64,000 nucleotides of DNA from Pohlia nutans (Eukaryota; Streptophyta; Bryopsida; Bryales; Mniaceae), in NCBI GenBank assembly GCA_022496805.1, contig CM040094.1, positions 13,973,501 through 14,037,500 on the forward strand, given 5' to 3'. Positions within the stretch are counted from its first letter, which is position 1. The number at the start of each line of letters is the position of its first letter. Under the pieces are notes generated by a model, which saw only the letters and a program-made list of their open reading frames with translations, searched no databases and had not been told where the DNA came from. Position numbers and translations under genes: made by a program. Positions 31,935 through 63,876 of the stretch are shown piece by piece.

Positions 31935-31955
31935 CACAGGGAGCTTCTGCAAGAA
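31935..31955 (+). repeat. Left terminal inverted repeat
   Basis: Begins CACAGGGAGCTTCTGCAAG. It pairs with 63855-63876 at 21 positions with one single-base gap. Confidence 0.92.
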
Positions 31956-31965
31956 ACCGACATGA

Positions 31966-32300
31966 AAGCATGTGGGAAATTGGGATTTTCCCCGGTTGTG
32001 ACCTAGCTTCACACTGGAATTATTTTTTCCCAGTAGAAATTCCCCTATGCTGCAAACTTACTTGCGTTCTATGTGCGGTTGTCTCTGGAATTCTATGCGA
32101 TGGAAATCCACTGACTTTTCATACAGGTTTTCCATGTGGGATTCCCACTGTCTTCAAGTTCTCTTTCATTCGAGAAGGTGTTTTTCTTTTTTCAACTTTG
32201 GAAATGGTTCAAATTCCTACACATTCCATATGGGTTTTTCCTAGGAATTGTCATACACTTGTTCAAAACATCTAACATTCCACATGGCTTTTTCCATATA
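31966..32300. repeat. Left subterminal palindrome cluster
   Basis: Degenerate copies of a TTCCC/GGGAA motif occur about every 20-50 bp, e.g. GTGGGAAATTGGGATTTTCC near 31971, TTCCATGTGGGATTCCCA near 32129 and CCATATGGG near 32225. In En/Spm such arrays bind the element-encoded TnpA; a like role here is inference. Confidence 0.75.
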
Positions 32301-32309
32301 TGGACTTTG

Positions 32310-35300
32310 CATGTGATTTACATCCATTATTTATATGTATTGTGTGTATGAATTTCATAATGGTTTCATTGCAAAGTAAATAAATGAGTATAGTGTGTCT
32401 ATACTTTTCAATTTTAGAAGTTTGCACCTTATTAATACTCTGGAAAATGATTTCACATTTCAGTTATGTGTGATTTCAAGGGTTTTTGACATGAGGTGAT
32501 TGAAAGGAGAAACAAAAACTGTAATACTCGTATGAATTTTAAATCCATGAATTTAGTAATAGATTCAAATTTGAAAGTAAACAATAAAATAGTGAAGTAG
32601 TAAGGTCTTCTTTATCATGAAGCAAAACAAAAGCTTTGGAAAAATAGAAAGAACTTGATTTGTTGTATTCATATATATATATTTTTTTGATGATAAATGG
32701 TAATGAGCATATTTCCATGTTGACTTAATTTACTTTAAGTGCAATCACTTTGAAACACAAAATAAGTTTGTAAGAAAAGTAAAGCCAAAATTTTACAGTG
32801 AAAAAGCCTTACTTTGTGAAATTGAAACTTCACGATAATACAATATGTTTTAACTTATAAAATTAAATACAGTATATCAAAAATTACAAGTAAGCATGAA
32901 ATTGTCAAACAATGATGGAAAGTAAGGAATTCGAGGTTTTATTTGTTTTTTCTCCAACTCTTCAATATATGTTGGTTTACACACAATAATGACAATAAAT
33001 TTCAATTTTTTAGACAATCTCTATAAATAGAATTTGACATGTAACTACAGAAAGATCAACAATTGATCGATATATTATTGAGCTCTTTCATTTGTTTTAT
33101 GGACATATGTTCTAATGATGTTTAATCCTTAAAAGACCAAGGCATTGATAAAATAGTGAAACTTCACTTTATGTGCAATATAGCTATGAATATTTTGTTA
33201 AATTCTTTGTGATATATTGCAATAAATAACATTATCATTTTGTATTCATATTGATTAAATTTTCATGTCAAGAAATATCAATTTTGAGGTATATATGCGA
33301 TGCTACGTATGTACAACCATTCAAGAAATGAAAGTCATAATCTATCATGTCCTTTGGAATGAACTTCATATTTTTATAATTTTTTCAAATACTATATGGT
33401 TTAATATTATGAAAACCCTTTAAAAAATACTATATCATTCCATAACATTTTTATATAATTTAAAAGTAGGAACGTCAGTCAATGGTTTAAATTATAATAA
33501 ATGTGTTTTATATTGTAACTTTTACCTATCCAAACGAATCAACAATTTTATAGTTCGTACTTTTTTTTTAACTGTTACCAATATCATTTTTCAATATTTT
33601 TAAAAAAGAAAATTGTAAATAATTATAATAGGAAACATTGTCTATTTTGCAAATCAATTTGAATCATCTCGATCTCACTTAAATTTCACATAGGAGAATA
33701 TTTTAGAATGACACACCTTAACATATTTAGCAAAAGTATTGATGCTCCTACCATCAATATTTTTAAATTTTATAATTTCATAATTATAAATTCAACTCTG
33801 ACACCCAAAACCATTAGGGGTATTTGACAAAACATAGATGTAAATTAATATGTGCCTTCCATATGTTTAATGAAATTTGGTTCAATAAACAGCATGTCTG
33901 GCATCATCTTTACAAAATATATATACACTCAAACTTCCAAAAACACTTTAGAAGTTTTGTACATAGCTTTAAGAGCATTAATCTTTGGAAAAATTTATAA
34001 ATTATTATTTGCATTCTCAGAGTTTAAAATTTATCTTCATTAGTTAAAAGTTAAAACTAGTGTATGTATTGTAAACATCAAAATGCAAAAGAGATGATAA
34101 AGGGAACATCATTACTTTCTCCAAAGAGCAAATTATAGAACACTTAAACAATGTTTAGGTGATCCACTTTGAAAATTTCTCCCAGGTGGATTGAAGTCCG
34201 GTTAACAAAATTCAATTTGCCTTGGAAAGTACACGTCATGTAGTATTTTAAAATATTTTTATTATTTCAAAAACTAGCTTTTTATGTTTTAGCCACCTTA
34301 TTAAGAACGGCCATAGATCACAAAATGGTCGTTTCAATGTGTAGGGGTGAACTAACCATATGTACTAGTCAATTCTAAAAACCAAATTGTAACAGTAGTA
34401 GTTTTTTTAACTTAATTGCTTTTAAATTCATTAAATGAATATACAGAACTAATAATGAATGGAAATTTGATTCTATGGATAAGTTTTTTTGCCTCATTCA
34501 CACGCTTGCTTGCTTTCTTCAAAAACCTACATGAAGATGCATGTCAAGCAATCATCCTCCAAAGAAAAGAAGACAAAATGATAAAAAATTAAGCAAACTA
34601 TGAAAGTAAGAAAGCAAAGAAAAAATAATAAGACACAAGTACAATACAATATGTCAAAGGTATATGAATTATAGCAAAGAAGAGTACACACACATGGTAA
34701 CTACAGAATTTCTAATAAATAGTGAACTAAGTGAAGCTATGGCAAGAAGTAAATTTAGCTCATTTGGACATACCAAGTAATGAAAGTGAATGCATTTGTT
34801 GTAACCAAAAATAGTAGAGGATACCAAATGTGTCTCCTATTGGCTGCGCCTATTACCAACACGTACTCTTTTTTTTCCAATCAACACTTGTTTTCTCTTC
34901 AATTGGCAAGTCGCGTGTATGCAAGAGTTGGAAAATAATTTCCATGATTAATGATCTCTAAATAAAAAATAGGAGTGTGTATTTGGATTCATGTATTTTT
35001 GTTCAATGTACACATTTCCTTTATAATTAAGTCTTCATGAAATTGCATATTGATTTTGCTTTGTTTGTGAATTAGGCTAGTTCAAAATAAGTTATTGCAC
35101 ACTACATCTGTATATATTACAATATTAAGTAAGTATCACTTAGTTCTATTAATAGTATTACAAAGAATATTTGAAGCTCTAACTCTTAATGTTTTTGTTC
35201 TATTATAATACCGTACCTTATAAGTAGCATAAGTTTAATTTGTTTTTTTAAATAGATTATGGATTTGTAAGAAAAATATTAGTAAAAAATAAATAAAATT

Positions 35301-36084
35301 AACAGGAAAAAAAAATCTTGAGGATTATTCGTTGTGTTCAAACTTGAATTCCTAAAAACTTTAAGAAATGTATGGAACGTCGTCAAACTTACTTCAATGG
35401 TACAATATTTGCAATCTTGTTTTTATGAATGCCACAACTTTTCATTGCAATGAAGTGCAAATTGCAACTGTGATAAAGTTTTGTAAAATACAATACCTTT
35501 ACGCTTCTTTGGCAATGATCTATTTCATTCTATTTGTACTAATTGTATACATAACTCTTTAATTATCATACTTTATATATATATATGAATTTTGTAATTT
35601 ATGTTTTTCATAAAATTGTATTCAAGTTACACATGTGACAATGTCATATATAATAGTAGATTGAAAAATTGTCAATGTTTGTGTCATACATTATTCCTAG
35701 TTCAGTGCAGTATTACATGTGTGAAAAAATTAGGAACATGATTTGTATACCACTTTCTTTTCCTTTGCAAGTATTATAATAACATATGCTACTAAGTTCA
35801 AATTGCATACAACATGTACATCAAGAACTCCAAAACATCGATTTCGTAATCAAGTAATTCAAATAACAATAATGAAAACATACTTGAATAAATAAAATAA
35901 GTAACAACGCTGATTTTTATGAACACAAATTCTTACTAATAACATTGCTTGTAACAAAACTTCTATTAGTTATAATTTAGAGTATGTTGCATTGAAACAA
36001 AGACAGTTCATATTGGCGCAAACAAGCAAACATTAACTGGGACAATAACAATGCAGATTTTGGCACTTCTACTGTATTAGCATA
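32310..36084. other. AT-rich non-coding part of the giant element
   Basis: No gene recognised. About 33550-33840 is a worn direct copy, and about 34060-34370 a worn inverted copy, of the 540-bp family 2 MITE (shared phrases around the left-end hairpin and the AGAAATTTTC segment). Confidence 0.5.
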
Positions 36085-38636
36085 TCACCTATCAACAACA
36101 TTCTGTGCACTGAGTTTGATCTCCTGAACTCCTTCTACATCCACTCCTATTAATCGAATGCGACATTGAAGAGCCCATTTCACTATCAAGTCCAATTCTT
36201 CCATCCTTCGCTCCATGCCTTTCTTACCTATAAATTCTTCCTTGGAATAAGTAGGCAGTTGATTGGAAAATGCCTTAACCCCTCTGAGAACTTCATGCAA
36301 CAGCTCACATCCCATCACATGTTTACCAATTATCTTCTTTGAAGTTAAAGTCAATCGTCTGATGTCGAAATCTGCATTCTCAATATCCACTGCACAGCTA
36401 CCAACTTCATAAGACTGGTCCTTGTTAACTTTCTTCTTTGCACTACGAGTGCGTGGTTTGTCCTTTTGTATTTCACGTGCTCCTTTAGATATCGAAGGTG
36501 CACTTGATGTCATCGTCTTTGCATACACATCAAATTCTCCTTTGTCCTCTATTTTCAAAAACAATATTGAAGAGAAGTCAATGAAATATGATGAATGATA
36601 CATTGTGCATATTCAGTGCTAATGTAATTTTAAATTCAAATGTCAAAAGTATGCAAACTTTTTGATTTATTTGAAATACGTAACAGTCAACAACATGAAT
36701 ACTATAATCTCATTGTGAACTGTAAAAGATTTACTGTACCTTCAATTGTTTTGGTTTTCTTTTTCTTCCTTTTCATAGGAGGATCGTCTTCCCTATTGAA
36801 ATCATCACAGTCTTCTTTGCCTCCTTTTATACAAAATATTGAAGATAAGTAATTGAAATATGATGAATGATACTTTGTAAATGTACATAATGTCAAAATG
36901 TATATACAAAAACATAATGAATATAGATTGCAATTGTGTGAATGAATTTGAAAGACCTAACAACAACATCAATATCATCAACTAATTTGGAAATGAAAAA
37001 CGTCTATTGTACCTTGAATTGTCTTGTTTTTCTTCTTTTTCCTCTTTAGAGGAGGATCTTCTTGCCTTTCCAAATCATCACATTCTTCTTCGTCCCCTTC
37101 TTGCAAAAAGAATATTGATAAGTAATTGAAATATGATGAATGATATATTTTCACATATACAGTCAAAATTTATAGCAAGCTATAAAATGAATGTAATCTG
37201 TAATTATTTGTATCAATTTTAAACATCTGACAATAACATCAATAACAGAAACTACCTCTGAAATGTGAAAGATTTATTGTACCTTCAGTTGTCCTCTTTT
37301 GCTTCTCTTTTCTCTTGAAACGGGTATCTTCTTGCCTTTCCAAACCCCCACTCAAGGTATTTCCAGAGCATACATATACTTCACTTGTAGGTGCCTGAAT
37401 TTCATTCTCAGAATCACTTGTACAAGTAGCAGCAACATGAATAGTGCTGTGTGAAGGACGTTCATGATCCGAATTGCCAAAGTTCACAAGTTCTTGAGAA
37501 TTTACAATCTTCTTTTTACTTGTCTTACTCTTACCATGTTTCATCTCCAAAAAGGCTGCATATAGTTCATCAATGCCCCAAGTCATTGAGATCACAGAGT
37601 GCTTATATTGCAAAGCATATGTTTCAAGTTGTCCAATTTTTGTAGCCATGTACGCTTTGACCTCATCACGGAGAGTTGCTTGGTTGCGATAACTGCACTC
37701 TAAAAACTTCTTCCCTTCAGGATGACGTGTAGAATTGAACCACGAACGCAGTTTTCTAAGATTTCTGTTATGTGTAAACCAAGCTTCCTTAAAATACTTC
37801 TTCAGAAATGCTTTTCCATACGCGTCTTCCTTCTCATTTTTTGGGATAGCCCAAGATTTGAAGATGCGTTCATATGTTGGCATTGGAATATCCTCCTACA
37901 TAGACACAACATGTTTCTAAAACATTGGAAACATATAGAAGTTCCAAATACCATATAAATTCAAAATCTTACTTTTACAAAATCAAAATGGTAATGTCAT
38001 AAAATCAAAGGATTTCTGCATTTACATGTAGCAAAATAGATGTGTATGAAAGTAGTATTATGTACCTCGGGAACCTCAACATCCAATGCATGGACAAGAC
38101 TGTGCACTTCATTGTTGACAATGGATGAATCTATTGTATTGGAAATAATAGGTCTCTTCCATGTGCTTTCTGTTGTTGTTGTATTGAAAAAATAAACATA
38201 TCCTACACACATCAATGTTATATTAGTAAAAAAGGTGAATATCACATAATTAGATTGGAGTCTTCGATGATTTTATAATACAGAAACATTGATAAAAATA
38301 GAGACACTACTATAAACTCAATGTTTGTCTTTCATTCTTACAAAGACTTCAAAAATTCCTTTTAGAGAACACATTTGTTGTTTAATTTAACTTTGAAAGT
38401 AAATCAATCTTACCATCTTGCACTCCAGCTTTCCACTGTGCCGGGAAGTCTGTCGGAAGGCTTGGATGAGTCCACTGAGATTCTCTTGTTTGTTGATTGT
38501 AGTAGTATACATCCTTAGTGGATGGATGTGTACCCTCAACCCACCCTTGTGGTAATTCTCCAAGTGGAATGTAAGAGTCATTCATGGTCACTCCTAGGTC
38601 TCTATTGGATCTCACTGGATTACACATTTCTTTCAT
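36085..38636 (-). CDS. Tandem WW-domain protein of the giant transposon
   Basis: Six exons read 38414-38636, 38066-38202, 37283-37895, 37013-37099, 36740-36823 and 36085-36548. All junctions are GT-AG with matching phases, giving 535 aa from this ATG; further 5' exons up to about 39.4 kb are possible. WW1 is GWVEGTHPSTKDVYYYNQQ onward, with the second Trp and THP. WW2 spans the first intron: W-KAGVQDGYVYFFN, ending TWKRP. WW domains bind Pro-rich or phospho-Ser/Thr-Pro peptides. The middle (from EDIPMPTYERIF) is a basic helical region, perhaps DNA-binding. Then come three related K/R-rich segments, each ending near KT(I/T)xG, which look like nuclear signals. The C-terminus is helical with no known domain. 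It is transcribed away from the transposase and is probably an accessory protein; no homologous family is named with confidence beyond WW. Confidence 0.75.
36740..37345 (-). repeat. Tandemly duplicated basic exons
   Basis: The end of exon 3 and all of exons 4 and 5 of the WW gene encode variants of (L/F)xRQEDxxxKRKxKxxKTxx. Exons 4 and 5 are 87 and 84 nt, both multiples of three. The introns between them share AAGTAATTGAAATATGATGAA-like sequence, so exon and intron were duplicated together. Confidence 0.85.
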
Positions 38637-38639
38637 ATG

Positions 38640-39976
38640 TGAGCATCACAAGTTGTAAGGACATAAAACACATTTGATTCACTTGCATCCTCTATTGTTT
38701 TAGAAAGTTTGTAAGTAAAAAACCGAAGGCAAATATAATAAAACATACTGTACTTACATAATTCACACACAGACATGCTTAACAAAGTTCTTGAATTTGA
38801 GATACTTTTGTTCATCACAGGAACACAATTCATGTATTATAATTAATGGTCTAAAGGATACATGCAATAGTATAGGATTTTATGATTTACTGACTCAACA
38901 AACTAACCTTTAGGAGAGAATGAAAGATGTGATGTTGACATATACAAGGTTCATCTTCTTCTTTACACTTGTACTTGATGCCTGATTCAAGAGCCCATCA
39001 TCCAATCAATATCAACTTAGTGCTTCTTTGTGTGCAATCAAGCATAAAACTAACAATAAATGAGATTCACTTCATGATTCAGCAATGAAGATGCAATTCT
39101 AGTTCCTATCAAGTCATTGTAGCAAGACCTTCCTCTGTTACAAGTGAGATGTAGGGAATATGTAAGAAATTCGTGCTGAAGTGAACAATCATTCAACATT
39201 ATTATGAAGTAATGAAAATAGAACTCTCATAAGAACAATGGCATTCATTGTGTAAAAAAATCAAGAACGACAGATTCATCAACAACATGTACAAGGGATT
39301 GCATGCAACTAACCAGCTCAATGGCCCGCATTCGGAGGTTATCACTAATCTTACAAATGATTACAATTGCGAAATCATAGAAACTAGAAGTATCCCGCCT
39401 TCCACAGTCATGTGTTCACTTTAAGCTTGCCTGTAACATACAAGAGCCAAGGTGAGGACATTTATGATTATGACAGCCGTCTGAGCTTCTACACTCTACC
39501 TGTGTCAAGTATACAAATATGATTAAAATACTGACAGTTTAGATATCATTAATACTGAAAACGCAGGCAAGTTTTGTTGAATACTGGGAACATGAACATG
39601 AACCCTTATAAGAGAAGCATATTTTATAAGTTTTTCAATGCCGTTCTCAAAACTTTCCTATCACTGTTGTTTTGAAATTTCAATTGGTACATTATAGCGT
39701 TGTGAATTTGCAGAAAATTGAAGCAAAATTTGTAATTGATTACTGTAATTTGTAAAATAGAGAATTTTTCTAGTCCTGTACAATACGTCATCAAAAATTG
39801 CTTCTGCAATCACTTCTAGATGTTTCCTACATTTGGATGACTAGAAGAACCTAAAAATCTCTATTTAAATAAAAATAAAAATTTAGAATAGCATCAATTT
39901 TACACACTTGAAAAACATTCATAACATCAGTGAACAAAACTTCTTGACATTATGTTTGGTTCAAGTTCACTTCACT
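38640..39976. other. Upstream region of the WW gene
   Basis: Probable promoter and possible 5' leader exons of the minus-strand WW gene. No other gene is supported. Confidence 0.4.
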
Positions 39977-39980
39977 TTAA

Positions 39981-41249
39981 CCCTCGAAGGACATAAATGA
40001 ACCTTGAAGTTTTCATACGATGTTGAATAATGAAATGCTTGTTGTGTACTATTGTTTTATTGATTTTTTTTTTCTATTGTATCACTCATGACAAGAATAG
40101 TATGTATCTACATTTGTAGAATGTAAATTATTTCTATATTTTAAACTCCTAAATGTCAACAACCCTCATGAGATTTGGAGAATTTCAAAGATGAGTTATA
40201 AAATATTAAAATGTAATTAAGAGGGATATTTTGAACTTCTTGTATGAATAAAAAATTTTACATTATGAATTGTAAATTCTATCTATATAGTTACATGGGT
40301 GATTCCTTTCATTAATATTTGTATACAATTTGAAACTAAAATTTTAAAATTCTATTGTGATTTGATTACAAATAAGATATTAACCCCTAAGTGAGGGATT
40401 GACCATTTTTTGGTCGCCGCCCTTTTTTTACTGGCTACCCGAGATGGAAAAAACAGTTTTATAGAAAATGAAAAATATTTTCAAATCGGGAATCAAGTCT
40501 ACTTTCCAACCTAAATTGAATCACGTCGATCCGAGTTAAACCCCACCGAGGAGAAATTTTCAAAGACAAACACTTCTACATTGTCTAGTGTTAGAAAATT
40601 TACTATTTGGGGAAAGGAATGATGTTGTCTCCTTTGAAAAATTTGCTTTTCTAAATTTTAGAATAGAATGTCTAGTTTTCAAGAATCATAACAAATTTCA
40701 AATTCTCAAAATAAAATTCGTAATTTTGATAAATATTTGAAGTTAAATGCTTCTAAATTCATTATGAGAAGATAAAAAGCTATTTTTTTTAATTTGACTG
40801 TATAGATAATTACTAAACATCATGCTCCTCATTTTCTCTTTTGGACCAAACTTCATCAAAGTTGAAGAAGTAATTTTTAATAACACATCTCTGTTTTGCC
40901 CTTACTCCCTCTGGCATTTAGGGGTTAACAATGCATGGATGTAAATCGTTGTAACGGCTTCAAATGTAAACTTTAATTGTACTTAGTTCTAGAGATTGTC
41001 TAGTTTCCAAATGTAATGAGTATATTTTTTGAAGAGCAGTTTTGAAGTAAGATCTTAAAAACTTGCAATCAATGATGACAACATGAAATGAAGCATATTA
41101 TTTTTAAATCATCCCTTTTAAATCAGGTCACAGAATTATAAAAACCAACTTCCTATAAAATATATAGTGCAAAAAGTCCATGACGGTTGAGAAAAAAAAG
41201 TTTGATTATGTACATCATTGAAGAATTGAACGCTTCGGTATGTAGGGGT
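39981..41249. mobile_element. Possible TTAA-flanked MITE carrying a nested MITE
   Basis: TTAA at 39977-39980 is followed by CCCTCGAAGGACAT, and GGGG-TTAA closes it at 41246-41253. The reverse-complemented right end, CCCCTACATACCGAAG, matches only loosely. Without the inner 40384-40924 element and its target duplication it would be about 724 bp. Confidence 0.45.
40384..40924 (+). mobile_element. piggyBac-like MITE, family 2, copy 2
   Basis: 541 bp between TTAA at 40380-40383 and 40925-40928. It starts CCCCTAAGTGAGGGATTGACC and ends CTGGCATTTAGGGG. It closely matches 25365-25898 outside the giant element, so this MITE family moved after, or independently of, the giant element. Confidence 0.88.
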
Positions 41250-41863
41250 TAAGTTCTATCTCAAAAACTATTATTGTCTATATTGTTTAGGAAATTTCTT
41301 TTACAAATTCAATTTGTTCAAGGCATGTTTTACAGTGCAGATCATGTGAATAAGCTATACATAGTAAACATAAAATGGATGGAATGAACATAAAATCTTA
41401 GATATGACTTCAACAAAGTTCATGAAATTTGATACATAGAAACATATAAAGGCAAGTTCTAGAAAATTAGTTTTATACTTAAATTTTCAAATATCATTTT
41501 AAAACTTCATTTATAGAATGTAGAAGCATTTGACGTGGAAAATATTTGAAACTTCTAATCCCATGTGTGATTGAATGAAAACCGTATTTACTATTTTAGA
41601 AATGGAAAAGCTATGATTAAGAAATGAAGGAAATAATATAATACATGTGTTCACATATTTTATTTGATGACACTAGAAAAATATTGGAGTGTTTTTTTTA
41701 TAGAGGAGAGATATCCGTAAAGTCACCTTGCATTTGATGAATCTACAAATTTGATGAATTTGATTGTACATCACAAAGAATGATTATTGTGAAGGGTCAA
41801 AAATAATAGTTTGTATATTTGAGTTATCCGTAAAGTCACCTTGAATTTGATGAATCTATATAG

Positions 41864-42134
41864 AATTTTGCTCTATTATACTTTTATTTGTTCACTCCAA
41901 ATAGTTAAAAGGTGTGGAAAATTTTGGTGGTTTATCATTATTAGGTGTAGAAGAGGTGTGTAAGGGCTTGGTGGTCTTCAAAAGCTTTTTAGCTCCTTTC
42001 TTGATGCTAAAAAACTTTTGAAGACCACCAAACTCTTACACACCTCATACACACTTAATAATGATAAACCACCACGATCTTTCACACCTTTTAACTATTT
42101 GCATTGACCAAATAGAGTATAATAAAGCAAAATT
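41864..42134. repeat. Long hairpin, ~130-nt arms and 12-nt loop
   Basis: The left arm 41864-41993 and right arm 42006-42134 are near-perfect reverse complements (e.g. GGTGGTCTTCAAAAG against CTTTTGAAGACCACC). Upstream, the phrase ATCCGTAAAGTCACCTTG occurs twice (about 41710 and 41825). It could be a foldback MITE or a small-RNA precursor. Confidence 0.88.
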
Positions 42135-48583: not shown

Positions 48584-49868
48584 ATGGGAAAAGGAGGTAA
48601 GCGAAAAAAACCTGTAAGGGATGAGCAAAAGGTATATTTGTGTACCACATGTGGTTTAAACATTAATGGTCCTATTAAGTGGAACATGCATGTTAATGGA
48701 AAAGATCACAAACGAAGAGTTGTCAGGAATGTTATTCAAAACACAATGATGAACATGCATGTGACGCTTGATAAAGATGTACAAGAACTTGGTCAAGTAG
48801 AAAATATTGATGAAATTGAGAGAAGTGAAGATGAGAAACTAATTGAGAACTTCAGATTGCGTGGATACTCCATCCCTAGCAATGTAAAAAGAATTCAACG
48901 TGTGAGTAAGGTGAAAGGTTATACAAAAAAATGTGATTATCAAGAAGTCGTTGAGGATTCGGTTTTGGTTGAGGATGGAGAGGTTGTAGGGTTAATCATT
49001 TTCAATTTTTATGATGAAAAAGTATCAAATGAGTTAGTAGACATAGTACATAAGCTATGTGTAACTGCAAGGTGGGTAGCTCGATCAAAAAAGAAAAAAA
49101 AGGGAGGTCTTATTTTTATGTTTGGTGCCCGCGTTTGCTGTGGTCGTTTAGATAGATATTCTCAATCTCAGAAGGCCCCAGGAGGGGGTTGCATCCCGGG
49201 TTTTATGCCACCAGAGAAGTGGGAGTTAGAGTTTACTTCTGCTTATGTTGCATCCAAATTGTATGGGCATTTGAAGAGCGAAATTCCATCTTTCATGAAT
49301 GAACTTGAAAAAATTGTTCCACCATCTGTAGGAACTTGTGGTGTGCGGGTGGGTAATACCCCATTCACTACAATGGGAACTACATTAAACTATTTTGTGC
49401 AGGAGCATCAAGATACGAAAGATGCAGGAAATACTGTCATTTCTTGGTTTGAGAAAGATTATCAATTGGGTTTTAATAGAACGATTTTTAGATTGCGTGA
49501 TTTTGCCATTTTTTTTAGACCTATCCAGGGAACTATGGCTATATTTGATGGATCCAAAATATGGCATGGCACCAAAAAGAATGATATTCGATATAGTCAA
49601 TTAGGAGTCGTGTTGGCTGTGAAGAAAGTTGTTCTCGAAGCAGGGAAAAACAAAATGGATACGATTGGATTTACACAATCAACACATGGTAAGTTGAATC
49701 AAACTTTGTCCTTTTGTTACTTATTATGATTTGCTAGTTTAGTTTAAGAGAATTGTACATCACGTTATGAACGGTTTTAGAAAGTACGTCTATACAAAAA
49801 ACTTGAATCAATGAAAGAATTCATAGTTGTGACTAATTAATTTTAATTGTTTTCCAGGTGCCTTTTGA
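48584..49868 (+). CDS. U1-zinc-finger + TET/JBP-like 2OG/Fe(II) dioxygenase
   Basis: Exon 1 is 48584-49688 and a tiny exon 2 is 49858-49868, GT-AG, giving 371 aa. Residues 17-45 form a U1/matrin-type zinc finger, C20-x2-C23-x12-H36-x5-H42, after a lysine-rich start. The C-terminal half is a double-stranded beta-helix dioxygenase core. Its HxD iron ligands are H275 and D277 in QEHQDTKDAGNT, the distal histidine is H328 in IFDGSKIWHGT, and the likely 2-oxoglutarate arginine is R336. A conserved GT..N-type strand (TPFTTMGTTLNYF) precedes HxD, as in TET/JBP enzymes, which oxidise 5-methylcytosine or thymine in DNA. All key residues are intact. It lies inside the giant transposon, upstream of the transposase and on the same strand. 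Alternatives are another nucleic-acid dioxygenase such as AlkB-like; the HQD...WHGT pattern and finger favour TET/JBP. Substrate unproven. Confidence 0.8.
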
Positions 49869-49979
49869 GGATTACGGCTTCATGATCAAGGTGTTGAAAG
49901 GTTGACACCTATAGAAGCGCCTCACTCTACAGAGTTTAACATGGACTAAGTTGTATAGCCTTGTAATTCCACAAAGTTC

Positions 49980-50460
49980 AATTTCACAGTTTTTTGGAGG
50001 ACCTGTCTTGTTTCTATAATCTCCTAAATTTGTTTATATGTGTAGTATCAGATGCTTAGATCACTACGAGGAGAACGCATCACTTTTCACTCTTTTTGTG
50101 AGTTAGAAAGCAAACTTTTGCTCACTGTGATGAGTGTTTTCATTGTACGGTTTGTATGAAGCATGTGTTGATTATGGCTTCAAATTGGAGATTAGTATTG
50201 TAGTTTCAAATGTCAAGTGTAATTTCACAGTTTTTTGGAGGACCTATCTTGTTTCTATAATCTCCTAAATTTGTTTATATGTGCAGTATCAGATGCTTAG
50301 ATTACTACGAGGAGAACGCATCACTTTTCACTCTTTTTGTGAGTTAAAAAGCAAGCTTTTGCTCATTGTGATGAGTGTTTTCATTGTACGGTTTGTATGA
50401 AGCATATGTTGATTATGGGTTCAAATTGGAGATTAGTATTGTAGTTTCAACTGTCATCTA
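49980..50460. repeat. Two tandem ~241-bp repeats
   Basis: The string AATTTCACAGTTTTTTGGAGG recurs at 49980 and 50221, and nearly all 241 bp that follow match. It lies in the 3' flank of the dioxygenase gene. Each unit contains ACTACGAGGAGAACGCATCA. Confidence 0.92.
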
Positions 50461-50612
50461 TTTGCATAAATTAGGTGAGTAACATTGAACATTGTTATAT
50501 GCAGTTTAACATAGGCTCCAGTTTAACTTGTACCCCTTACTTTGCAGGTTTTCTCTTTCCAGAGATACAGATTGTAGACCTTGCAAATATGCTACTGCTT
50601 GGATACATGCAA

Positions 50613-50810
50613 TCACTGTTTAGATATGTATCTAAAGGGCATTCTATCATTATGATGTTTGGGGAATCTAAAACTCTATCACTGTTTAGATATGTATCTA
50701 AAGGGCATTCTATCATTATGATGTTTGGGGAATCTAAAACTCTATCACTGTTTAGATATGTATCTAAAGGGCATTCTATCATTATGATGTTTGGGGAATC
50801 TAAAACTCTT
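50613..50810 (+). repeat. Three perfect 66-bp tandem repeats
   Basis: Units start at 50613, 50679 and 50745 and are identical over almost their full length. Because 66 is a multiple of three, the plus frame 50475-50972 stays open and reads SLFRYVSKGHSIIMMFGESK three times. I see no other sign that this frame is a real gene; the openness may follow from the repeat itself. Confidence 0.95.
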
Positions 50811-53330: not shown

Positions 53331-53332
53331 AC

Positions 53333-53340
53333 TATATAAA
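53333..53340 (+). promoter_or_regulatory. Candidate TATA box of the transposase gene
   Basis: TATATAAA in the context ACTATATAAAGGGAA. Downstream splice-like signals (donor after ATTCAG at about 53810; a candidate exon 54572-54611 between CAACAG and GTAAGAC; acceptor GGCAG near 55063) could join a leader to the ATG at 55129. Inference only. Confidence 0.4.
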
Positions 53341-55128
53341 GGGAATAGGTTGAGATAGGCAAATAAGTAAAGGGTTTTTATTCCGGCCATGTGGCACGTT
53401 AAGAGGTAGCCATGGGAGAGCCGTGACGGAATATACTGTGCACACAGAATACCTAAGTGACCCGAATCTGTTTTTCTCGAGAATGATCAAGGGTTTCACG
53501 TTTGAACTTATACACGGTACACCCACATTGTACACTAGAATCAATAGCGTTTGATGGAATTGTATATAGAGAGAGTACAAGACAATGTCTATTTTTTTGT
53601 TAGCACGATTTTTGCAAAGTATAGAAACACCGCTTTCTTCCTGTTCTTAGGGTTTTCATTTTCTTTTGAACAACCGACTACTGTGTTCCAAGTGGAACAA
53701 TACTCTTTTCAATATTGTAATTATAGTGTGTTTTCTTCATACTGGTTTTGTATTCTCACTTGAAAGATATTATCAAGTTTGTCAGAAGTTGGAAGTACTG
53801 AGATTCAGGTAACCTTCGAATACTTTGGAATGTGATATGCATAGTGAATGGAAATGTTGTTGTAGTTAAAAAGATTTTGAAGAATATTGGATTCATATTA
53901 CATTGTAGGAAAGAAAGTGAAGAAATTAGAAATACTTAGGAAAAAAGAACATTGATAGGAATTTTTTGTTGAATTGCAAAATCGTTTCCACATGTCCATA
54001 CTATTAAACATAGACTTTAGGATTCATGTAACTTTAAAAAGAATGGTAATTGATCAAATTGTGATATTAATGCTTAGTTTTGGTTTGTGATAATCTGTGA
54101 AATACTAACTACTTTGAAGTTCTTTTTAGCAAGACAATATATTTACAAGTATATGGCCTACTTCTACAAGATGACAGGAAAGGAACTTGAATATTTATTC
54201 CAATTGAAAGTAGCAACTACTACAATCAACATCTCCTGTTGGTGCTATTACTATTCCTATGCTCATATATTTCAAACTTTGCCTTCCACAACTATAAATA
54301 ATAGAACAAAATGTGTATTTTACATGTTTTGCATTTTTCTTATACTTGTGGTTTCTATAGTACATATCAATAATCTTACAATAATAAATGTGCTATATAT
54401 AATATCTTCAGAAGACAATGATACCATTGATAATATGATGTTGTAACTCATAAACAGTAATGAAACTTTTATACAATGAAAATGATAATATTTCTCTTCA
54501 ATGTTGATTGTGTGAAAATGTTGATTTTACTTTTATTTTCGTAACCTTTGGTTTTGTGCTTTTGATTCAACAGGAGTCATTGTAAAAGAAGGACCAAGTG
54601 AGACTTCAAGGTAAGACATTTTGCTATGAACTAAGTGAGAACTTTGTAATTGATGCTAATTCCTTGAAATGTAAAGATCATTTGGAAAAACAAAAAAAAA
54701 TTCTTCATATTTATCTATATTTTGTATGCCATAAGAGGAGTTATCAAAATCTGAAATTAGTGACATGCAATGTATACATTGAAATAGCAAAGATTGTGCA
54801 AACCTAAATTATCCAACTTTGAGTTTTAGTAATTTGTAAACATTTATAGAACCAAAGGTAATGTGTTGTTAATACCTTGAATGACATTTCCTGATATACA
54901 ATATGGAACCTTTTTATGTAATCTAAATTATGACTGTCATTTCTGTTTGTTTATAAATACGAATTCAATTTCTTATATTCTTAAACTAGAATAAATTGAT
55001 AGTACAAGTTTAATGTTTATCACCAAAGTGTCTAACAAGTTTCATAGAATTTGCTTTGGCAGGGTGAATAGTGAAGAAAGGAATTTGAAACCTTTATTTG
55101 GATCCTCAAAACTTTGTAGTTTTAAAAA

Positions 55129-58100
55129 ATGGCTCCAATCCAAACAAAAGTGAAATGCACTTGCGACTATAAATGTAAACATGTCCCTCCCGGCTTCTCA
55201 TGGATTCCATATACAACAAGTTTGTTTCACGAGAAGAAATCTATAGCAGGGCAACGACATCCATCCTTACAAATCACTGGGATTCTTCAAAGAGAAACAG
55301 CTATACAATTTAGACGAAAGTCTCGTTTAGTGCCATGTATATGTGATGTTTGCAAAGGTGGAGTTATGAAGACAGAGAAAACCATGAGAAGACATTTAGC
55401 AATAAGTTCGATGAGGCAGCGTTTGAATGTTAGCATGGAATTTAACCAAAACAATGGAAGAACATCTGAACAACCTTTAAGGATAGGATTTGGTTGGGAT
55501 GAAGAAACATATGGAGAAAGCAAAAACACAATGGACTTTGAAGATGTGAGTACAATAGTTAGGGATGACAATGACAATGGACAACATTGTGAAGAAGTTG
55601 TAGAGGATATGGTCGTTGAACAAAACCAAATCGGATATGAACGAGGAGAAGATTTAAATGATCATGGAGATGAAGCTTTTTTTGTTGGAGGTGACGAATT
55701 ACATGACGATGATCCCGATAACAATGATGAAGTAAACATGACAAGGACTGTAGAACCTGATCAAATGGATATGAATTATATACTTCCCAGAACAGTAAAC
55801 CATGATGATGCATTGATGAATAGTTTGATAGATTTACAATCTATTCTTGACAAACACCATATGCCATTAGACTCCCAGGATGAAATACTGAGAAAGTTCT
55901 TCAAATCAACCAATGAACAATCCATAGTCGACAAAGGGGAAACTATAGATTTTGGTAAATTATCATTGGGACAATTATTGGCATTGAAGGGTCCAAATTG
56001 GAATGGAGATATTAATGGTTTTCAAGTTCCGACATCTTATAAGCAACTCCAACAAATATACAAACACCTTGGAATGGAAGGAACACAGAAATGGAGATTG
56101 TGTACTGGGAAAGAAGGTGAAAGCCATATTCCATATGTAATGGAGCCTCATGAAGAAGATTCATTTGATATCCACTTGAATTGTATATGTTCTCCCAAAT
56201 CGAGAGCAAAGCACAGAAGGGATTGTGTAAATTGCGGGCAAAAGTGCATCATTTGCAAGCAACTAAGGAAAGATGTTCTAGCTTTTGAATACTTACCAGT
56301 GCAAAGTATAGTTCGTATGTTTTGCCGCAGTCGGACTATATGTCACAACTTTCTAACCTTGTGGCGAAATTAGGAGGTGTGGAGAGGTCATCCAAAAGAA
56401 TTTATTTCTGATAGTATCAAAGATTTCTGGGATGGTTCAAAGTTTAGAGAATATCAAGAATTTTGGGATCCAGAGTCTTCATGGGAGGGTCCTCAAGTAT
56501 GTCCAATGCCACATTGTAAAAGGACTTATCGAGCCTTTCCAAATCTGAAGAAGTGTCAGGAATTGATTGAGAATTGGGATGAAGACCATCAACTATATTC
56601 ATTTCCATGTTCTCAATGTGGAACTTTGATAGAAGGACCAAAATGCATCCATCAGGTATGTTTTATATATGAATTTTAGAGTGGTAATGTGCACTTCTGA
56701 GTAATGTTGAGGAACAATTCACTACTTTGTTTGTAGATTTATAGAGCTTATAATGATTGTTGCATAAGTGAAAGGTAAAAAATCCATTTACAGTAATTAA
56801 ATTGAAAAGTTATAATTCATTCATGTTGTTAAAGAAGGTGAAGGGCGTTGATGTACACTTGTACACAATACCAATGTAAAATGTAACAAATGTAACAAAA
56901 GTTTAATTTCCACAATGTATATTCTTTTGTAGGGAGATCCAAGAAATATTGCACTAATGGCTCACTGGGATGGATTTCAAAGTGCTCGCACACGCCAACG
57001 AGAATGTTGGACTTTGGAAATATCGATTTTAAATTGTGGAAAAAGGTTACCTTTTGGGCCAATTCCTGTTCTTTTTATTCCATCAAGTTCCAACAAAATT
57101 ATAAAACAACCTGATATAAAGATTTTATGTTCTTTTTTGGAACCTTTCATAGCAGAATTAGAGAGGCTTTTTATTGAAGGAATGCACATCACATATGCTT
57201 ACCCTGTACATTTAATAAGTGACAAATTATTGCCTACACCTATAGAGGATCCTATTTTGTTAAGAGCAATATTGATGGTGTATAGTGGAGACCATCCTGC
57301 CCAATGTAAAGTAGGTGGATTCAAAAGTGGTGGTTTCATGGCATGTAGAAGACACAACTTATTCCATGTTGAAGAAGGTTTGGTTTCCAAAGCTGCTACG
57401 TTGTACTATGAAAACACAAGAAAACAAATTCGATATCCACCACCTACAAGGACAACTGAGGCTTTGGTAAAGGCAACTTCACAATGGAGAGAAATGCCAA
57501 AAGGTGAAGAACGAAAGAGATTAGCACGTGTAGCTGGTATTTCAGGTTACTCAGAATTGTGGCGTCTTCATCATTTATATGGATTTGATTTGTCACTAGA
57601 CTTGGTTTATGATGCCATGCATGTATTAGCTCTTTGTGTATTCAAAAAGTATGTAGAGCTCTTGAAGAAAAATATGGAAGAATTAGGCAGGTTTGAAGAG
57701 CTTGATAATGCTTTGTTTGCAATAACAAAATGTAGACCTGTAGGACTTGGAGGTCGATGGCCAAGGACATTGAGAAATTTGGGCTTCTATAAGGCTGAAG
57801 AATACCAACTCTTTGTAATGTGGTGTTTACCATACATTCTAGATAAATTAGATTTGGGGAAGAATACAGTTTTAGGATGTTTAGGGATGCTACTTATAGA
57901 AATTGGACGATTGTTCTATTCTCACTCTCGAAGACATGGATGGACTGAGAAGAGTATGGCAGTCGCAAAAATGTTATTAAGTGCTTGGAGGGTACGCATA
58001 GAGGAGAGTTTGGGGCCAAATAATGCTCCTTTGGAACACGTTGCAGGTACTTCTTTTCACTATCTTGATTAAACTTCATTTTTTATTATGTTAAATTTTG

Positions 58101-59442
58101 AAATGCATGCTTTTTTTTTCAGGATAAGTTACTAATAGTTGTGTATATTTGTTCTTTAGGTAGTGGAGAAATGTTTGATGATATTATTAGACATGGATGC
58201 CATGATGTCTTTTGGTGTTATGCCTTTGAGCGGGAAGTTGCTAATTATATGAAGATTCCTACAAACCAAAGATTCAAGGAGTTGACATACATTCGATATT
58301 TTGAAAGAATGTGTTTCACAAGAAGTTATACACTTCAACAAGAAGATTGTGATGGTTTACTGCCTAGTGCAAGAGGACTATTAAAAATTCACAAATACTT
58401 ACAACTACCAAGATCACAGTATAGACCAGATGCTTCAGCGTCTGTAAGTTGTGACGTATGGCACAGGAATTGCACTATTGTGGTCCAATCCCAAGACATG
58501 GCCAGATGTTTATCAAACCTACTTCTCGAAGTATCAAATTGTGTGTGTCTTGAAATGATAGAAAAGAAAGGGATATTGGTAGGAAATAAGCACTTTGACG
58601 GTGTTCAAATGTTGGAAGGTACAAGACAATACTTGGTACAATATTGGCGAGAAGTTGGAGTGCTATGTACTTCAAATGTGGAGCAATTTGATACAAAAAT
58701 TAGAACAATTCGTTTTGTGATTTACAAAGGTAGAGAGTTTAGAGTGGGAAGTTTGGTAGTTGTGAAACCTGATGGAGATGGAGTGCAACACCCGTGGCTG
58801 TGGAAAGCAAAAATTATTAGTTTTTTTATACATGAATTTCAAGGCATTCAACAAGTATTTTTCTCAGCCAAATATTTTGAACAAAGGATGGAAGATGGGA
58901 GATCAATAGTACCTTTGGTCCATAGCATCACTGGAATGCAAATATTGAATTCAAAACCAAGAGAGTTTGCGATCAGGCCAATACAACAGTTGATGTACGA
59001 ATTCATGGCGTTACCGTCACACAATATTCAAGGAAGATTTGCTGTTGCTTATGAATTTGAGGATGAAGGTCCTAGGACCCATTTAATAAACACAGGTGAG
59101 CCTGGTTGTTGTCTCCCTTATCCAGAAATTGGGGACATTATGATGGTACGTGACAATAGCAATGCAGAATCCAGATATTCAGTGGTCCGTAAGGTGCATC
59201 CCAAAGCTATTGTAAACGGTGGAGTTGAAGTTCGTGGTGGATGTTTGGAAGAACAAGATTATCTCGTGGGCAGAGTGGAACTAAGTATTCTTTATTGTGA
59301 ACAATCACACCGTACGTGGTACACAACATCCATAATTGGAGAGGAGACATGCTCATGGCACAAGTTAATCAAAAGAATGTCAAATTTTGAGCCAATAAGA
59401 TATTCGTTGGGTGTGCCTATCCAATGGAAACAAGTATACTAG
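55129..59442 (+). CDS. CACTA Tnp2-like transposase, one in-frame stop
   Basis: Three exons, 55129-56655, 56933-58046 and 58160-59442, with GT-AG joins in matching phase span 1,307 codons. Order: an N-terminal Cys-rich zinc region (KCTCDYKCKH; later CICDVCKGG with a following His); an acidic middle; a second Cys cluster (CVNCGQKCIICKQ); CPMPHC and CSQCG knuckles; then the Tnp2-type core from GDPRNIALMAHWDGFQ. This core includes LRAILMVYSGDHPAQCKVGG (near residue 628) and CRRHN. Next is a DUF4218-like region (EYQLFVMWCLP; GCHDVFWCYAFERE). The C-terminal 250 residues contain FRVGSLVVVKPDGD, which may be a small beta-barrel such as BAH. The product would cut and join the element ends. A TAG at 56371-56373 interrupts the frame, with the same frame resuming at once. 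Between about 56330 and 56396 another frame reads smoothly (SDYMSQLSNLVAKLGG), so two small offsetting indels are possible. Confidence 0.85.
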
Positions 59443-62400
59443 AAAAAGGTATCGTATATACACCATATGCATACTCTATATTTTGCATGATAATTTACTA
59501 TAATTACAAGAAAATATGAAGGAAATGGAATAAGTACTGTCATTTTTATTTTTTAGGAATAGGAATGAAATGGTTGCATTCGCTATGTGGTATTCTTATT
59601 CATAAAGAAAGGAAGTGACTTCAAATTAGATTAGCACCTTTGTTTTATTGTCTAATTATAACATTATGAATGTATAAAATTGTTGAAATGCCACCCATTG
59701 TTTCCGAAGTTTTGGTCAACAAGTATGACGTACTGTGTTTTAGAATGAGATATTGTGATGTTGGTATATAGAACTTGATAGTTTACATAGAAATTGTTAC
59801 GTCATTCTAAACAATATGGATTGTGTGATGCAAACGTGTGTGGTATAGATGTCAAATTGTTCTACTTTTTGTAAGTCGACGTCCACGTGTGAAATCTAAT
59901 TTCATGTCACTTTGTTCGAACATTGCAATCTTACAGATTTTTTATTCAATTGAATTGGATATACTTCGTTTTTAAACATTATGTTGTGCAATAATAGCTT
60001 GAAGTTGTTGAGTTATATTTCTTTAGTTCCCTTTAACAAATACAAACAACTTTGGTGAAGTTTTATATCGCTTTTGTTTGTATGGGAAAAATTTATATTG
60101 TTTTTACAAAGGTTGTTTCATTAACTTTCAAAGAGTGTATGCATCATTGCGAAGGGGATAGGGTATAGAAGAGGATTGGATGTTACAGCAACAACTTTAT
60201 GGCATTATGTTTTAAGGTACACTTCTTGCTTTCAAATGGAAGCTTTTGGGGGTATATTCATAGGTGGTGCTTTTTAATTTCACTGAAAAGGGCATGCTGC
60301 CATCTTTCATTTCTCCATATCATATAGTTACATTTTCAAGAAGCAAGAAGCAAGCAAGATTTGATTGTCACATGCATGATAGGAAACAACTGAGAGGGCA
60401 AGAAATTAAGTATTGTATGTGTAATTAAGGTAGTCCTCATTCAAGCATAGTACAGAGGTTGGTAATCATGATATGAATTCCATAATTTCTTTGGCTTGAG
60501 ATGACTATGTTATATTGATGAACATTTTTGCCGTATGCAAGCTTGACGTGCTTGACCATGAACTATTGTCACTGTAGTAATGTAATACCCAATGAATTAA
60601 ATTATTAAAGAGCCATTTGAAATAATATTTGAGGCATTTAATGTTTTGTGAATTAGTGATCTTGCAGTAGGTACACGTTATGTAGAGTAACATGAATACC
60701 ATCAACTATGGTGCAATTAATTGTTTCTTTGTGTAATAGAACAGAGATGTGGAAAAAGAAATGGAGTTCCAAAAAGGAAGTCAATAGTGAATAGCTGGAA
60801 ATCAAGAAGGATTGTACAGTGATTGTTGTTGAAGACATTGGTTTGTTAGTAAAAAAAACTTGTGTTTATCATGGTGTTTTACGAACTTGATTGTTTACTT
60901 TTGAATTACGTGGTTTGTTAAATAAGGTTTGGACACGATTTGAGATGTCAATTCATGTTTGAATCTTCTTGTACAACCTGTTGGAGCTGCTCACAAAGAA
61001 GAAAGTTTTTTCACAAGTTTGATTGTGAATATCAAAGCATGTATCATGATTATGAAGAATGATTTAAAAGCACAATGTTTGATTGACAGATGTCTTTGTT
61101 TGTGTGCATTATTTGTAGTTGGCAACCCTTTGTAAGAAGGCAAGGGGAATATTGGATAGAATTGGTTGCACAGAGACGAAGGTGGACGACTTACAAGAGA
61201 GCGGAATTCGTTGCTTCTACTAAGCACCTAGAAGATCCAACACTAATCTTGGAGAGCAATGAGAGCGGCAAGCATATACAACAACCATGTATGAGGTTGA
61301 TTTACTGAAGTTTTGATTTGCTTGAAAAGTAAGATTAACTTCATTGTCAATTGCTTAGTTTGGAGTGTTTCTATTTTTGAATTCCAGCTTTGGAAAATAA
61401 AAATTAAGAATTTTTATTAACCTCTCATGAACTTCTTGATTTATGATATAGAATTTTTTTACAGAATTGTAATCATTTTGACATTATGTGATTGATTCAA
61501 ATCAAAAAAAAAAAATCTTGAATTTCTTTCTATTAATTTTATATTTTATAATTTGTTTGTTTTTTGTGATGTGTTCTTATGTCTACTATGTTGTTGCAGT
61601 TGCCTTCCTGTATTACTTCATGCTTTGGACACGCTTGCAAGGTTAGAGGCGAATTCAAGATTACATGAACTTGGCTTTATAGTGTACGTACAACTCTATT
61701 ACAAACCATACTTACAATTGATATCAACATTTTAAAATTTATTAATCTTTATTCTTATTTGAAAAACATAGCAAGTTCATTGGTCTTACCATTCTAGTTT
61801 TTTAATTGAGAAAAGGAATTTCAATATGTGCTGCCTACCATGGTCAGCTGATTACTCAAACAACGCATACTCACTGTATTTTATTATTTATGTTTTTTAT
61901 TGTTTTTTAAATTTGGAATTCAATTGTTGTATGAACTTTGAGTGCATCCAAATACTTCTGCTCCTATTCTATATTTCTTATGAAATAGAGAATATAACTT
62001 TTTGGAAGACGTTCGTTTTTATTGTTTTTGATTGGTTGCTCCTTCTAGAAGGTAGGGACAATAGTATGAATTGTTGTTTGTTGTTCTTTAGTGCACATTT
62101 CAGTTTTCAATTCTCTGCTCATTTATTATAGGATTGAGAATGGTGTATATAATGATCGTTTTTTCCAAAAAAACAAAAACAATCAAACCGCATGCTATCA
62201 TACAGTCTTCAACAAAATTTCATCTTTTACTTGCCTTCTTCAATACAGTTTACACAATATATAGTGATATACATATTAATGCACATACTTTTTGTGTGGT
62301 ATATATTGTAGTTGTGAAATCAACATTGTATAAATACCTTGCATCTTTTGAAGAACTTGGGAATCACTAATTCATAAATTAGAAGTTCAAATCCAATAAC

Positions 62401-62750
62401 AAAGGTATATGACCAAAGTTGTAGGAACCCTCTCATTTTATATGTGAACTATGGATATTCAAAGACTATACTGATTGCACATGATACTATACATTAGGAT
62501 ATAATGTTGTTGTGCTATATTGCTACTTTTGTGAACTCTCTTATGGATAACTACTTTGACATTGTGTTACATATGATGAATTGCAGTTTTCAGAGGAAGT
62601 TCTTGAATTTGCATGTGCCATTTACAAGGCCAACAAATCTAGTTTTTTTCATTTGAAGAAAGGAGGACTATTCTTGTATAATTTGGTGAGTCAATCATTT
62701 AGTACTTTCAATAGTGAGGTGTTTTGTAATATAAGTCTGAAATAGAAATT
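59443..62750. other. 3' flank of transposase with possible small exons
   Basis: Mostly AT-rich. A few exon-like pieces on the plus strand have good splice signals, notably 62587-62685 (33 codons, phase 0, FSEEVLEFACAIYKANKSS, between TTGCAG and GTGAGT) and possible ones near 61120-61290 and 61601-61642. Their frames cannot be joined with confidence. They may belong to a fourth element gene or to another captured fragment. Confidence 0.3.
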
Positions 62751-62779
62751 TATGTTCATATATACAACTTGCACAAGGA

Positions 62780-63854
62780 GAAATAAAAACATTCCCACAT
62801 GGAATTTCATATGGGAAGTGGGAAAAAATTCCCACAATTGTAACTTTCTTGGGATGATTCCAATGTATTTTGATCTAGGAAAGTTACAATTGTATCATGT
62901 TTCCCATATGGGAATCTTGTATTTATCTGCTTGTGAATTGTTGCATACATAATTGATTTGTCATTTTAAGTAATTATACAATAGAATTGCATGGTACAGT
63001 GTGCTTTCATTCCATGAACGATATGAACTGCATGTTCGATTTCAGTGCATTACAATATTGTGGGTTTTGGCAGGAAAAAGTTCTTCCATTGCTAGAGAAG
63101 AAATCCAACATCCCATATATAGTGATGTCGTTGTAAAGTTTGACCTTACAAAATTCCCAAGCACAATAATAGATTGTAGAAATATATGTGAATAGCATAT
63201 GAATTACTTGATATCATACTTTCAAATGTAGTGAAAGTTATTGAATCTCAATTGTAATTCTCTTCCAAGCATATGTCAATTTTGACTTGTGCTAGTATTT
63301 CAAATACCCCATTTGAATACATTATGTGAATGAATTTACAATATTGCAAGTTTAGTGTGGATTGATTACAGTACGTGTCATGTTTCCACAAATTCCTATA
63401 TAGGAAAAACAACAATTTTCCCTCTTGAAAATACTTGTTTGCAATTTCCCACATGGGAATGTTTTTATATTTCCACTGAAAATTTCCCCATCCCTTTCTC
63501 TGTGATTTTCCCTTCTGGGAATGTTTTCATATTTCCACTGAAAATTTCGTCATCCCTTTGTCTGTGATTTTCCCTTATGGGAATGTTTTCATATTTCCAC
63601 TGAAAATTTCGTCATCCCTTTGTCTGTGATTTTCCCTTATGAGAATGTTTCATTATGTACACTCACACTTTTCCCTAATCTTTTCACTTCATTTTGTAAT
63701 TTTCCCACATGGGAAACTTTTAAACTGCACTCACAAATTTCCCTCATGACCATCCGGGAAGTGGGACAAAATTCCCATGATTGTAATCTTCCCGGATGAG
63801 TGTATGAAGGAGCTGCTTTTCATACGGGGAAAGACCCTGTTTTCCCGTAAGGGA
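62780..63854. repeat. Right subterminal palindrome cluster
   Basis: Many copies of TTCCCACATGGGAA-like palindromes, e.g. near 62790, 62902, 63446, 63706 and 63760. The words match those in the left cluster, supporting the element's two ends. Confidence 0.85.
63448..63657. repeat. 62-bp tandem repeats carrying the end motif
   Basis: Units start at 63448, 63510 and 63572, with a partial fourth at 63634. Each begins CCC(N4)GGGAATGTTTT and contains CCACTGAAAATTTC. The array multiplies the subterminal motif. Confidence 0.93.
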
Positions 63855-63876
63855 TTCTTGCAGGAAGCTCCCTGTG
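63855..63876 (-). repeat. Right terminal inverted repeat
   Basis: Read from the end, CACAGGGAGCTTCCTGCAAG onward; pairs with 31935-31955. Confidence 0.92.

Follow-up and report, generated by a model that had tools for sequence, protein, structure and literature searches.

A CACTA/EnSpm-type transposon with its own TET/CMD1-like gene in the moss Pohlia nutans

A TET/JBP-like gene lies within a stretch of 64,000 nucleotides of the Pohlia nutans genome (C10:13973501-14037500, hereafter the window), and it raises the question of whether such a gene can belong to a plant transposon and what it would do there. A preliminary description had placed at positions 31935-63876 one complete element of about 32 kb, with matching ends and a TAG duplication, that contains a Tnp2-like transposase, a TET/JBP-like dioxygenase, and a WW protein. 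The terminal repeats, the duplication, and the copies of the element in the genome bear this out, and gene models were found for all three proteins. We consider it likely that the locus is a recently active cut-and-paste transposon of the CACTA/EnSpm type in a moss-like plant, and that it carries an enzyme of the TET/CMD1 type as its third gene, probably for counter-silencing.

One mobile element and its copies

The limits of the element and its terminal structures are the following:

31935-63876, plus strand: complete CACTA/EnSpm-type transposon of 31,942 bp, defined by terminal inverted repeats, a target-site duplication, eight genomic copies, and an empty site
31935-31955, plus strand: 5' terminal inverted repeat, CACAGGGAGCTTCTGCAAGAA, from the comparison of the ends
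63855-63876, minus strand: 3' terminal inverted repeat, reading CACAGGGAGCTTCCTGCAAGAA on the minus strand, from the comparison of the ends
31932-31934, no strand: left target-site duplication, TAG, present once at the homeologous empty site
63877-63879, no strand: right target-site duplication, TAG, present once at the homeologous empty site
31935-33434, no strand: 5' subterminal zone rich in GGGAAA/TTTCCC (k-mer count), presumed binding sites
62377-63876, no strand: 3' subterminal zone with the same GGGAAA/TTTCCC motifs (k-mer count), including 62-bp direct repeats at 63445-63671

The left end of the element at 31935 reads CACAGGGAGCTTC-TGCAAGAA, and the right end at 63876 is the reverse complement of CACAGGGAGCTTCCTGCAAGAA. 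The terminal inverted repeats are identical over their first 13 nucleotides, which are followed by one single-nucleotide insertion or deletion (indel), with 21 of 22 positions alike. There are 17 GGGAAA/TTTCCC motifs in the terminal 1.5-kb zones taken together and nine in the 27.9-kb interior, which corresponds to an approximately 17-fold enrichment. The G+C content of the element is 33.0%, compared with 36.1% for the window. The CAC..GTG termini with inverted repeats, the 3-bp duplication, and the subterminal repeats are features of the CACTA/EnSpm superfamily. The earlier label of a CACTA-like element holds in this respect, although the termini read CACAGG instead of CACTA.

The host assembly comprises 697,796,988 bases in 332 contigs. 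The first 900 nucleotides of the element occur in it at eight places, including the window, with 99-100% identity, and the same eight places contain the TET protein (99-100%), transposase exon 2 (96-100%), and exon C of the WW gene (99-100%). The spacing of the three genes matches across the copies, with the exception of two on contig C2: C2a is rearranged, its 5' part being inverted and located upstream, and in C2b transposase exon 2 is split by about 5.5 kb of inserted sequence (C2:42780643-42787216). Four copies were retrieved broadly, and three more by their ends. Where they align with the window, the four are 99.3-99.7% identical to it, and sister copies end at identical bases, allowing for chance matches of a few bases. 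The full-length copy on C17 (31,941 bp) has 99.6% identity to the window; its 111 mismatches in 31,947 aligned columns mean that the spread of the element is recent. The C6 copy is 32,011 bp long. No deletion derivative with the same 5' end was found in the assembly, where besides the eight copies only a 35-bp scrap of this end matched; the 3' end was not searched.

A matching 3-bp duplication flanks six of the seven copies of which both ends were read: TAG in the window, AAT on C17, GGG on C6, AGG on C1, AAG on C19, and GAA in C2b. The chance of each such fit is 1 in 64. The flanks of the window's element, when joined (200 + 121 nucleotides), match C9:14506666-14507001 with 83% identity over query bases 1-298. 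Longer joined flanks (250 + 121 nucleotides) align to C9 over 348 bases across the junction, where a single TAG is present. The alignment of the joined flanks with the C9 site contains indels of 4, 9, 21, 9, and 1 nucleotides. C9 and C10 are probably homeologues, since matches to the glycosylase domain RRM_DME also fall in pairs on neighboring chromosomes (C1/C2, C7/C8, C11/C12, C13/C14, and C15/C16). Such pairing of chromosomes with adjacent numbers agrees with the description of Pohlia nutans in PMC9247546, which counts 22 chromosomes, although C23 of the present assembly also measures at least 8.3 Mb.

Two observations speak against a single mobile unit. The C13 copy has both ends, but its flanks read CCT and GCC and contain no duplication. 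At the empty site, one of the 9-nucleotide indels is located immediately to the left of CTAG, so that the right junction is clean whereas the left one is not base-perfect. Both could be explained if there were no single transposon and the genes had been bracketed by chance by two unrelated repeats. This explanation is ruled out, to the point of near impossibility, by the end-to-end copies at unlinked places with duplications of their own and by the empty site with one TAG. We take the indel as ordinary divergence between homeologues, and the interval 31935-63876 is confirmed as one mobile element of the CACTA/EnSpm type.

Transposase and WW-domain partner

The transposase gene and the WW-domain gene have the following models:

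55129-59442, plus strand: Tnp2/CACTA-type DDE transposase of 1307 codons in three exons (55129-56655, 56933-58046, and 58160-59442); the model agrees with fern and liverwort relatives
36085-38585, minus strand: WW-domain accessory gene, open, encoding 517 amino acids in six exons (38585-38414, 38202-38066, 37895-37283, 37096-37013, 36823-36740, and 36548-36085); in-frame GT-AG model

The transposase has 33 relatives at E<=0.001, of which 16 belong to the fern Adiantum nelumboides and 12 to the liverwort Riccia sorocarpa. The catalytic residues D (HWDGFQ), D (GDHPAQ), and E (KAEE) are present and were aligned with 13 relatives, one of which lacks the stretch of the second D. The Transposase_21 profile matches the window protein weakly, with an E of 0.0069 that is below the curated cut-off, and 19 of the 33 relatives at E<=0.01 (best 1.7e-9). 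At the C(2)C position, which in the superfamily lies between the second D and the E, the window transposase has CRRH and four Riccia proteins have CRRC, whereas the Adiantum proteins vary, with CRRD, CRRC, or other residues. An assignment to the Kyakuja-Dileera-Zisupton (KDZ) class is ruled out by the Tnp2-like transposase together with the 3-bp target-site duplication, that of Zisupton being 8 bp.

The window transposase is disrupted by an in-frame TAG at 56371-56373 (codon 415). Five copies were examined for an open transposase frame. It is present in C17 and C2a, a stop breaks it in C6 and in the window, and in C2b it is interrupted. Exon 2 is free of stops in six of the eight copies, with a TAG in C6 and the split in C2b. 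Because of its in-frame stop, the window copy would depend on its sisters.

The WW gene is transcribed divergently from the transposase gene, and its product contains two WW domains (Pfam, E 9.5e-16). The frame is open in the window, C2b, and C17, and frameshifted in C6; in C2a it lies beyond the retrieved stretch. Two small exons of the gene are located within tandem repeats of about 272 bp (36528-37351), by which a KRKKKK-type basic stretch is doubled.

Genome searches for transposase, WW, and TET loci give lower bounds, and neighbors were considered up to a distance of 60 kb. Within this distance, transposases and WW genes of other families form 16 pairs, against 0.30 expected, which involve 14 of the 24 other WW loci. 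Eleven of the pairs are divergent, four are convergent, and one has both genes on the same strand. As the pairs are far more numerous than expected, the WW protein is a standing partner of this transposase lineage in the host genome. It apparently accompanies the lineage in Adiantum too: among 38 proteins compared, it resembles the C-terminal part of the Adiantum transposase gene models P0004 and P0017 (E ~6e-6), with a weaker similarity to P0008 and P0014. The WW protein probably functions as a TnpA-like factor.

TET/CMD1-like enzyme

The third gene is positioned between the other two:

48584-49729, plus strand: TET/JBP-family (CMD1-like) enzyme of 381 amino acids encoded by a single exon, with an N-terminal C2H2/U1-like zinc finger; identified by Tet_JBP and CMD1 profile matches

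In 5.8 billion proteins, a single-sequence search found three and a profile search five, and two scans of viral contigs confirmed no viral relatives. All eight aligned members match the Tet_JBP profile at E<=1, the best at 4.2e-8. The profile of these eight members matches 22 sequences in the PDB, of which 5-methylcytosine (5mC)-modifying enzyme 1 (CMD1) of Chlamydomonas is the best at E 4e-9; the other 21, with E values no better than 0.0037, are restricted to the N-terminal finger part. The alignment to CMD1 is confined to profile positions 210-320, and the sequences are distant. Two points tell against the assignment: the window protein alone reaches an E of only 3.4e-4 with Tet_JBP (20.3 bits, the curated cut-off being 34.9), and the AlphaFold model of the enzyme has a mean predicted local distance difference test score of 34.7 and was not used. 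The preliminary description of a TET/JBP-like enzyme is right as regards the Tet_JBP family, but the protein looks CMD1-like instead of animal-TET-like.

Residue roles in CMD1 are taken from the accessible part of its structural description (PMC7854593), correspondences come from the alignments, and conservation is counted over the eight members. The iron ligands H345, D347, and H397 of CMD1 correspond to H275, D277, and H328, which are conserved in seven (the exception is relative P0002), eight, and eight members, respectively. Asp350 of CMD1 touches N4 of 5mC, and its change to Asn abolishes activity; Trp358 is in contact with vitamin C and takes the position of a 2-oxoglutarate-binding Arg (PMC7854593). 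Their counterparts D280 and W288 are present in all eight members, as are F302 and T330, which correspond to Phe371 and Thr399. The position of Thr337 (T267) is occupied by T or S, that of V272 by V, A, or I, and that of I286 by I or V, and Ser335 is replaced by Gly in six of the eight. Counterparts of Arg244, His249, and Ser414 could not be aligned in the eight-member alignment. The column of R336, the nearest to R1896 of TET2, the Arg by which the C5-carboxylate of 2-oxoglutarate is held, reads R, R, R, G, N, K, R, and G, with no conserved basic residue and an uncertain strand register. The residue pattern suggests an enzyme that modifies cytosine, is nearer to CMD1 than to TET, and possibly uses ascorbate.

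The zinc finger matches the Pfam family zf-C2H2_jaz in four of the eight members at E<=1 (best 0.01). This class includes fingers that bind double-stranded RNA, and many of the finger matches in the PDB are RNA-associated or ribosome-assembly proteins. The enzyme might accordingly have the whole host genome as its target, or a different base (thymine, N6-methyladenine, or RNA), instead of the 5mC of the element; the fungal enzyme CcTET also accepts N6-methyladenine, according to the accessible text of Kojima 2025 (PMC12730594). Since the counterpart of Asp350, the residue that in the accessible description of CMD1 contacts N4 of 5mC (PMC7854593), is kept in all eight members, we regard a different target as unlikely, and we favor 5mC of the element as the substrate.

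Possible role and relation to known transposons

The most likely role of the TET-like enzyme is to counter the silencing of the transposon, by analogy with the TETs of fungal transposons and with 5-glyceryl-methylcytosine (5gmC) in Chlamydomonas. In the accessible part of Kojima 2025, the TETs of fungal transposons are argued to work against silencing by methylation (PMC12730594). The accessible part of a study of Chlamydomonas reports an inverse relation between 5gmC and 5mC and a possible role of 5gmC in opposing the repression of transposons (PMC12458080). We hypothesize that the transposase and the basic WW protein, as a TnpA-like second factor, would bind the GGGAAA-rich subterminal zones and the terminal inverted repeats and mobilize the element. 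The TET-like enzyme, guided to DNA by its own zinc finger or by the accessory protein, would oxidize or otherwise modify 5mC on the element. The modified cytosine could either block maintenance methylation or feed repair of the DME/ROS1 type, and the transposon would stay expressed. Copies with a broken transposase, such as that in the window, could be mobilized in trans.

RRM_DME, a domain of plant-type 5mC glycosylases that is to our knowledge confined to plants, has matches in the host genome, as fits a plant, and in none of 14 control genomes, of which the ten named ones are bacteria and archaea. The 48 host matches to the C5-methylase domain are no marker of plants, as ten of the 14 control genomes also contain this domain. 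Many of them start at profile position 48, at dispersed loci and in some cases in open frames of about 1000 amino acids, an arrangement that would fit a repeated element with a cytosine-methyltransferase-like domain.

CACTA elements often pick up pieces of host DNA, and the TET gene could be such a captured piece, a passive cargo without a role in the life cycle of the transposon. The element contains other repeats, among them one of about 550 bp (40380-40928) that is 88% identical to 25361-25902 in the left flank; the element acquired it before spreading, since all four broadly retrieved copies have it. Several results weaken the case for a functional enzyme. The open frame in every copy means little for a gene one third as long as that of the transposase. 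Within the family, seven of the eight copies differ in TET by 13 singletons, ten nonsynonymous and three synonymous, a pattern that looks neutral after insertion, as expected if the copies arose from one source in a recent burst and have drifted since. Among the 72 merged transposase loci outside the eight copies, 69 have no TET match nearby, so that TET is not required by the transposase lineage, and the remaining three compare with 0.93 expected. Conversely, the full 381-codon frame is open in all eight copies, the active-site residues of the family are kept, and the nonsynonymous divergence between families (0.64-1.06) is well below the synonymous divergence (1.7-3.2), which is saturated and could not be computed for one of the six pairs. 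Because of the frame kept in eight copies and the active site kept in the family, we consider a passive cargo quite improbable and prefer a TET-like enzyme that serves the transposon.

The TET genes at these three loci are located upstream of the transposase on the same strand, on C21 (transposase 88%), C9 (63%), and C5 (fragments to 82%). The C21 locus is closely related to the element of the window and has decayed. The C9 locus has the order WW(-)-TET(+)-transposase(+) of the window with a distinct TET, whose separate open pieces show a start resembling a finger, the sequence IHTDTDD...WF, and the motif LWH. TET matches similar to that of C9 also occur without a transposase on C12, C1, and C4. 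The pairings on C9 and C5 are for this reason only suggestive and may reflect coincidence or a dispersed repeat.

The host genome contains 83 TET/JBP-like loci, merged from 108 rows, many of which are weak fragments. Intact TETs distant from the window family are present at loci L019, L022, and L031, with frames of 409, 405, and 418 amino acids, respectively. No transposase of this lineage was found within 60 kb of the diverged TETs L019-L023 and L031, a result of the lower-bound search; L019 is 52 kb from a WW locus. Related TET genes of the host are perhaps also within other transposon lineages. Near the broken TET of L020, a minus-strand open reading frame of 219 amino acids contains MEKPLNC and by eye resembles the N-terminus of a Plavaka-type transposase; a 206-residue part of it has no Plavaka-type Pfam match. 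The TET expansion in this plant recalls one reported for some mushrooms.

Plant CACTA/EnSpm elements such as En/Spm and Candystripe1 have CAC..GTG ends, a 3-bp duplication, subterminal repeats, and a Tnp2-type transposase with a second protein, and the moss element shares all of these. It differs from them in its CACAG ends (theirs are CACTA or CACTG), in the WW protein that replaces TnpA, and in the DNA-base-modifying enzyme. A CACTA/EnSpm element of soybean reportedly measures 20.5 kb.

TET-bearing EnSpm transposons have been published for fungi, with TETs of the PU and PE type (Kojima 2025, PMC12730594). As far as the accessible text describes them, they resemble the moss element in the EnSpm-type transposase, the 5'-CAC..GTG-3' termini, the 3-bp duplication, and a TET/JBP gene inside a complete element. 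The plant host, the length of 32 kb, the partner gene with two WW domains, and the CMD1-like enzyme set the moss element apart, the last going by the descriptions of the enzymes. The combination of TET and EnSpm is thus already known, and what seems to be new is that a plant has it, and the earlier notion of a new kind of transposon stands in this narrower form. The same applies to the earlier statement that fungal TET/JBP genes travel with KDZ transposons: they do, but the accessible text also places them in EnSpm/CACTA elements (PMC12730594). KDZ transposons share with the moss element the association with TET/JBP genes; their transposase is of a different class, and the duplication of Zisupton is 8 bp there (PMC12730594).

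CMD1 is the nearest solved structure by sequence and has the iron triad and the residues Asp350, Trp358, Phe371, and Thr399 in common with the moss enzyme. Unlike the moss enzyme, which is encoded by a transposon and has an N-terminal zinc finger, CMD1 is algal and is not described as a transposon gene in the accessible part of PMC7854593. Ty3/Gypsy elements of Phalaenopsis orchids that carry AlkB provide another large plant transposon in which a dioxygenase has become fixed and is proposed to matter for host control; according to the accessible text, however, they are retrotransposons with an RNA N6-methyladenosine demethylase and have no DNA-cytosine enzyme (PMC9289625). A TET-carrying plant transposon, a CMD1-type cargo, or a WW partner was not found in the open-access literature searched by title and start of abstract; most subscription papers are outside this scope, and absence in print is unproven.

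Removal of 5mC in plants is generally attributed to glycosylases and not to oxidation, and it is a matter of dispute whether land plants have TET-like activity. Eight intact, nearly identical TET/CMD1-like genes on recently moved plant transposons offer a defined enzyme, host, and locus at which two questions can be addressed: do such plants have oxidized or glycerylated cytosine, and do transposons produce it as a way out of silencing? The association of TET with transposons known from fungi is extended to plants, and the interest of the locus is high because it makes plant TET/CMD1 activity directly testable. We tentatively speculate, as a possibility that we would not yet favor, that a DNA transposon of a land plant encodes a CMD1-type, vitamin-C-using modifier of 5mC, whose product (5gmC or similar) would mask or erase the silencing mark; plant transposons would then, like fungal ones, have used TETs in an arms race, though by another chemistry.

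Further repeats inside the element include a 109-nucleotide inverted repeat with a 12-nucleotide spacer (41885-42114), a 241-bp tandem pair (49974-50455), and a perfect 66-bp triplicate (50612-50809). To the left of the element, a host gene at 8090-9974 contains a mitochondrial-carrier exon (Mito_carr, E 1.4e-9), and the open reading frame that precedes this exon has, by eye, an N-terminus resembling an organelle-targeting sequence.

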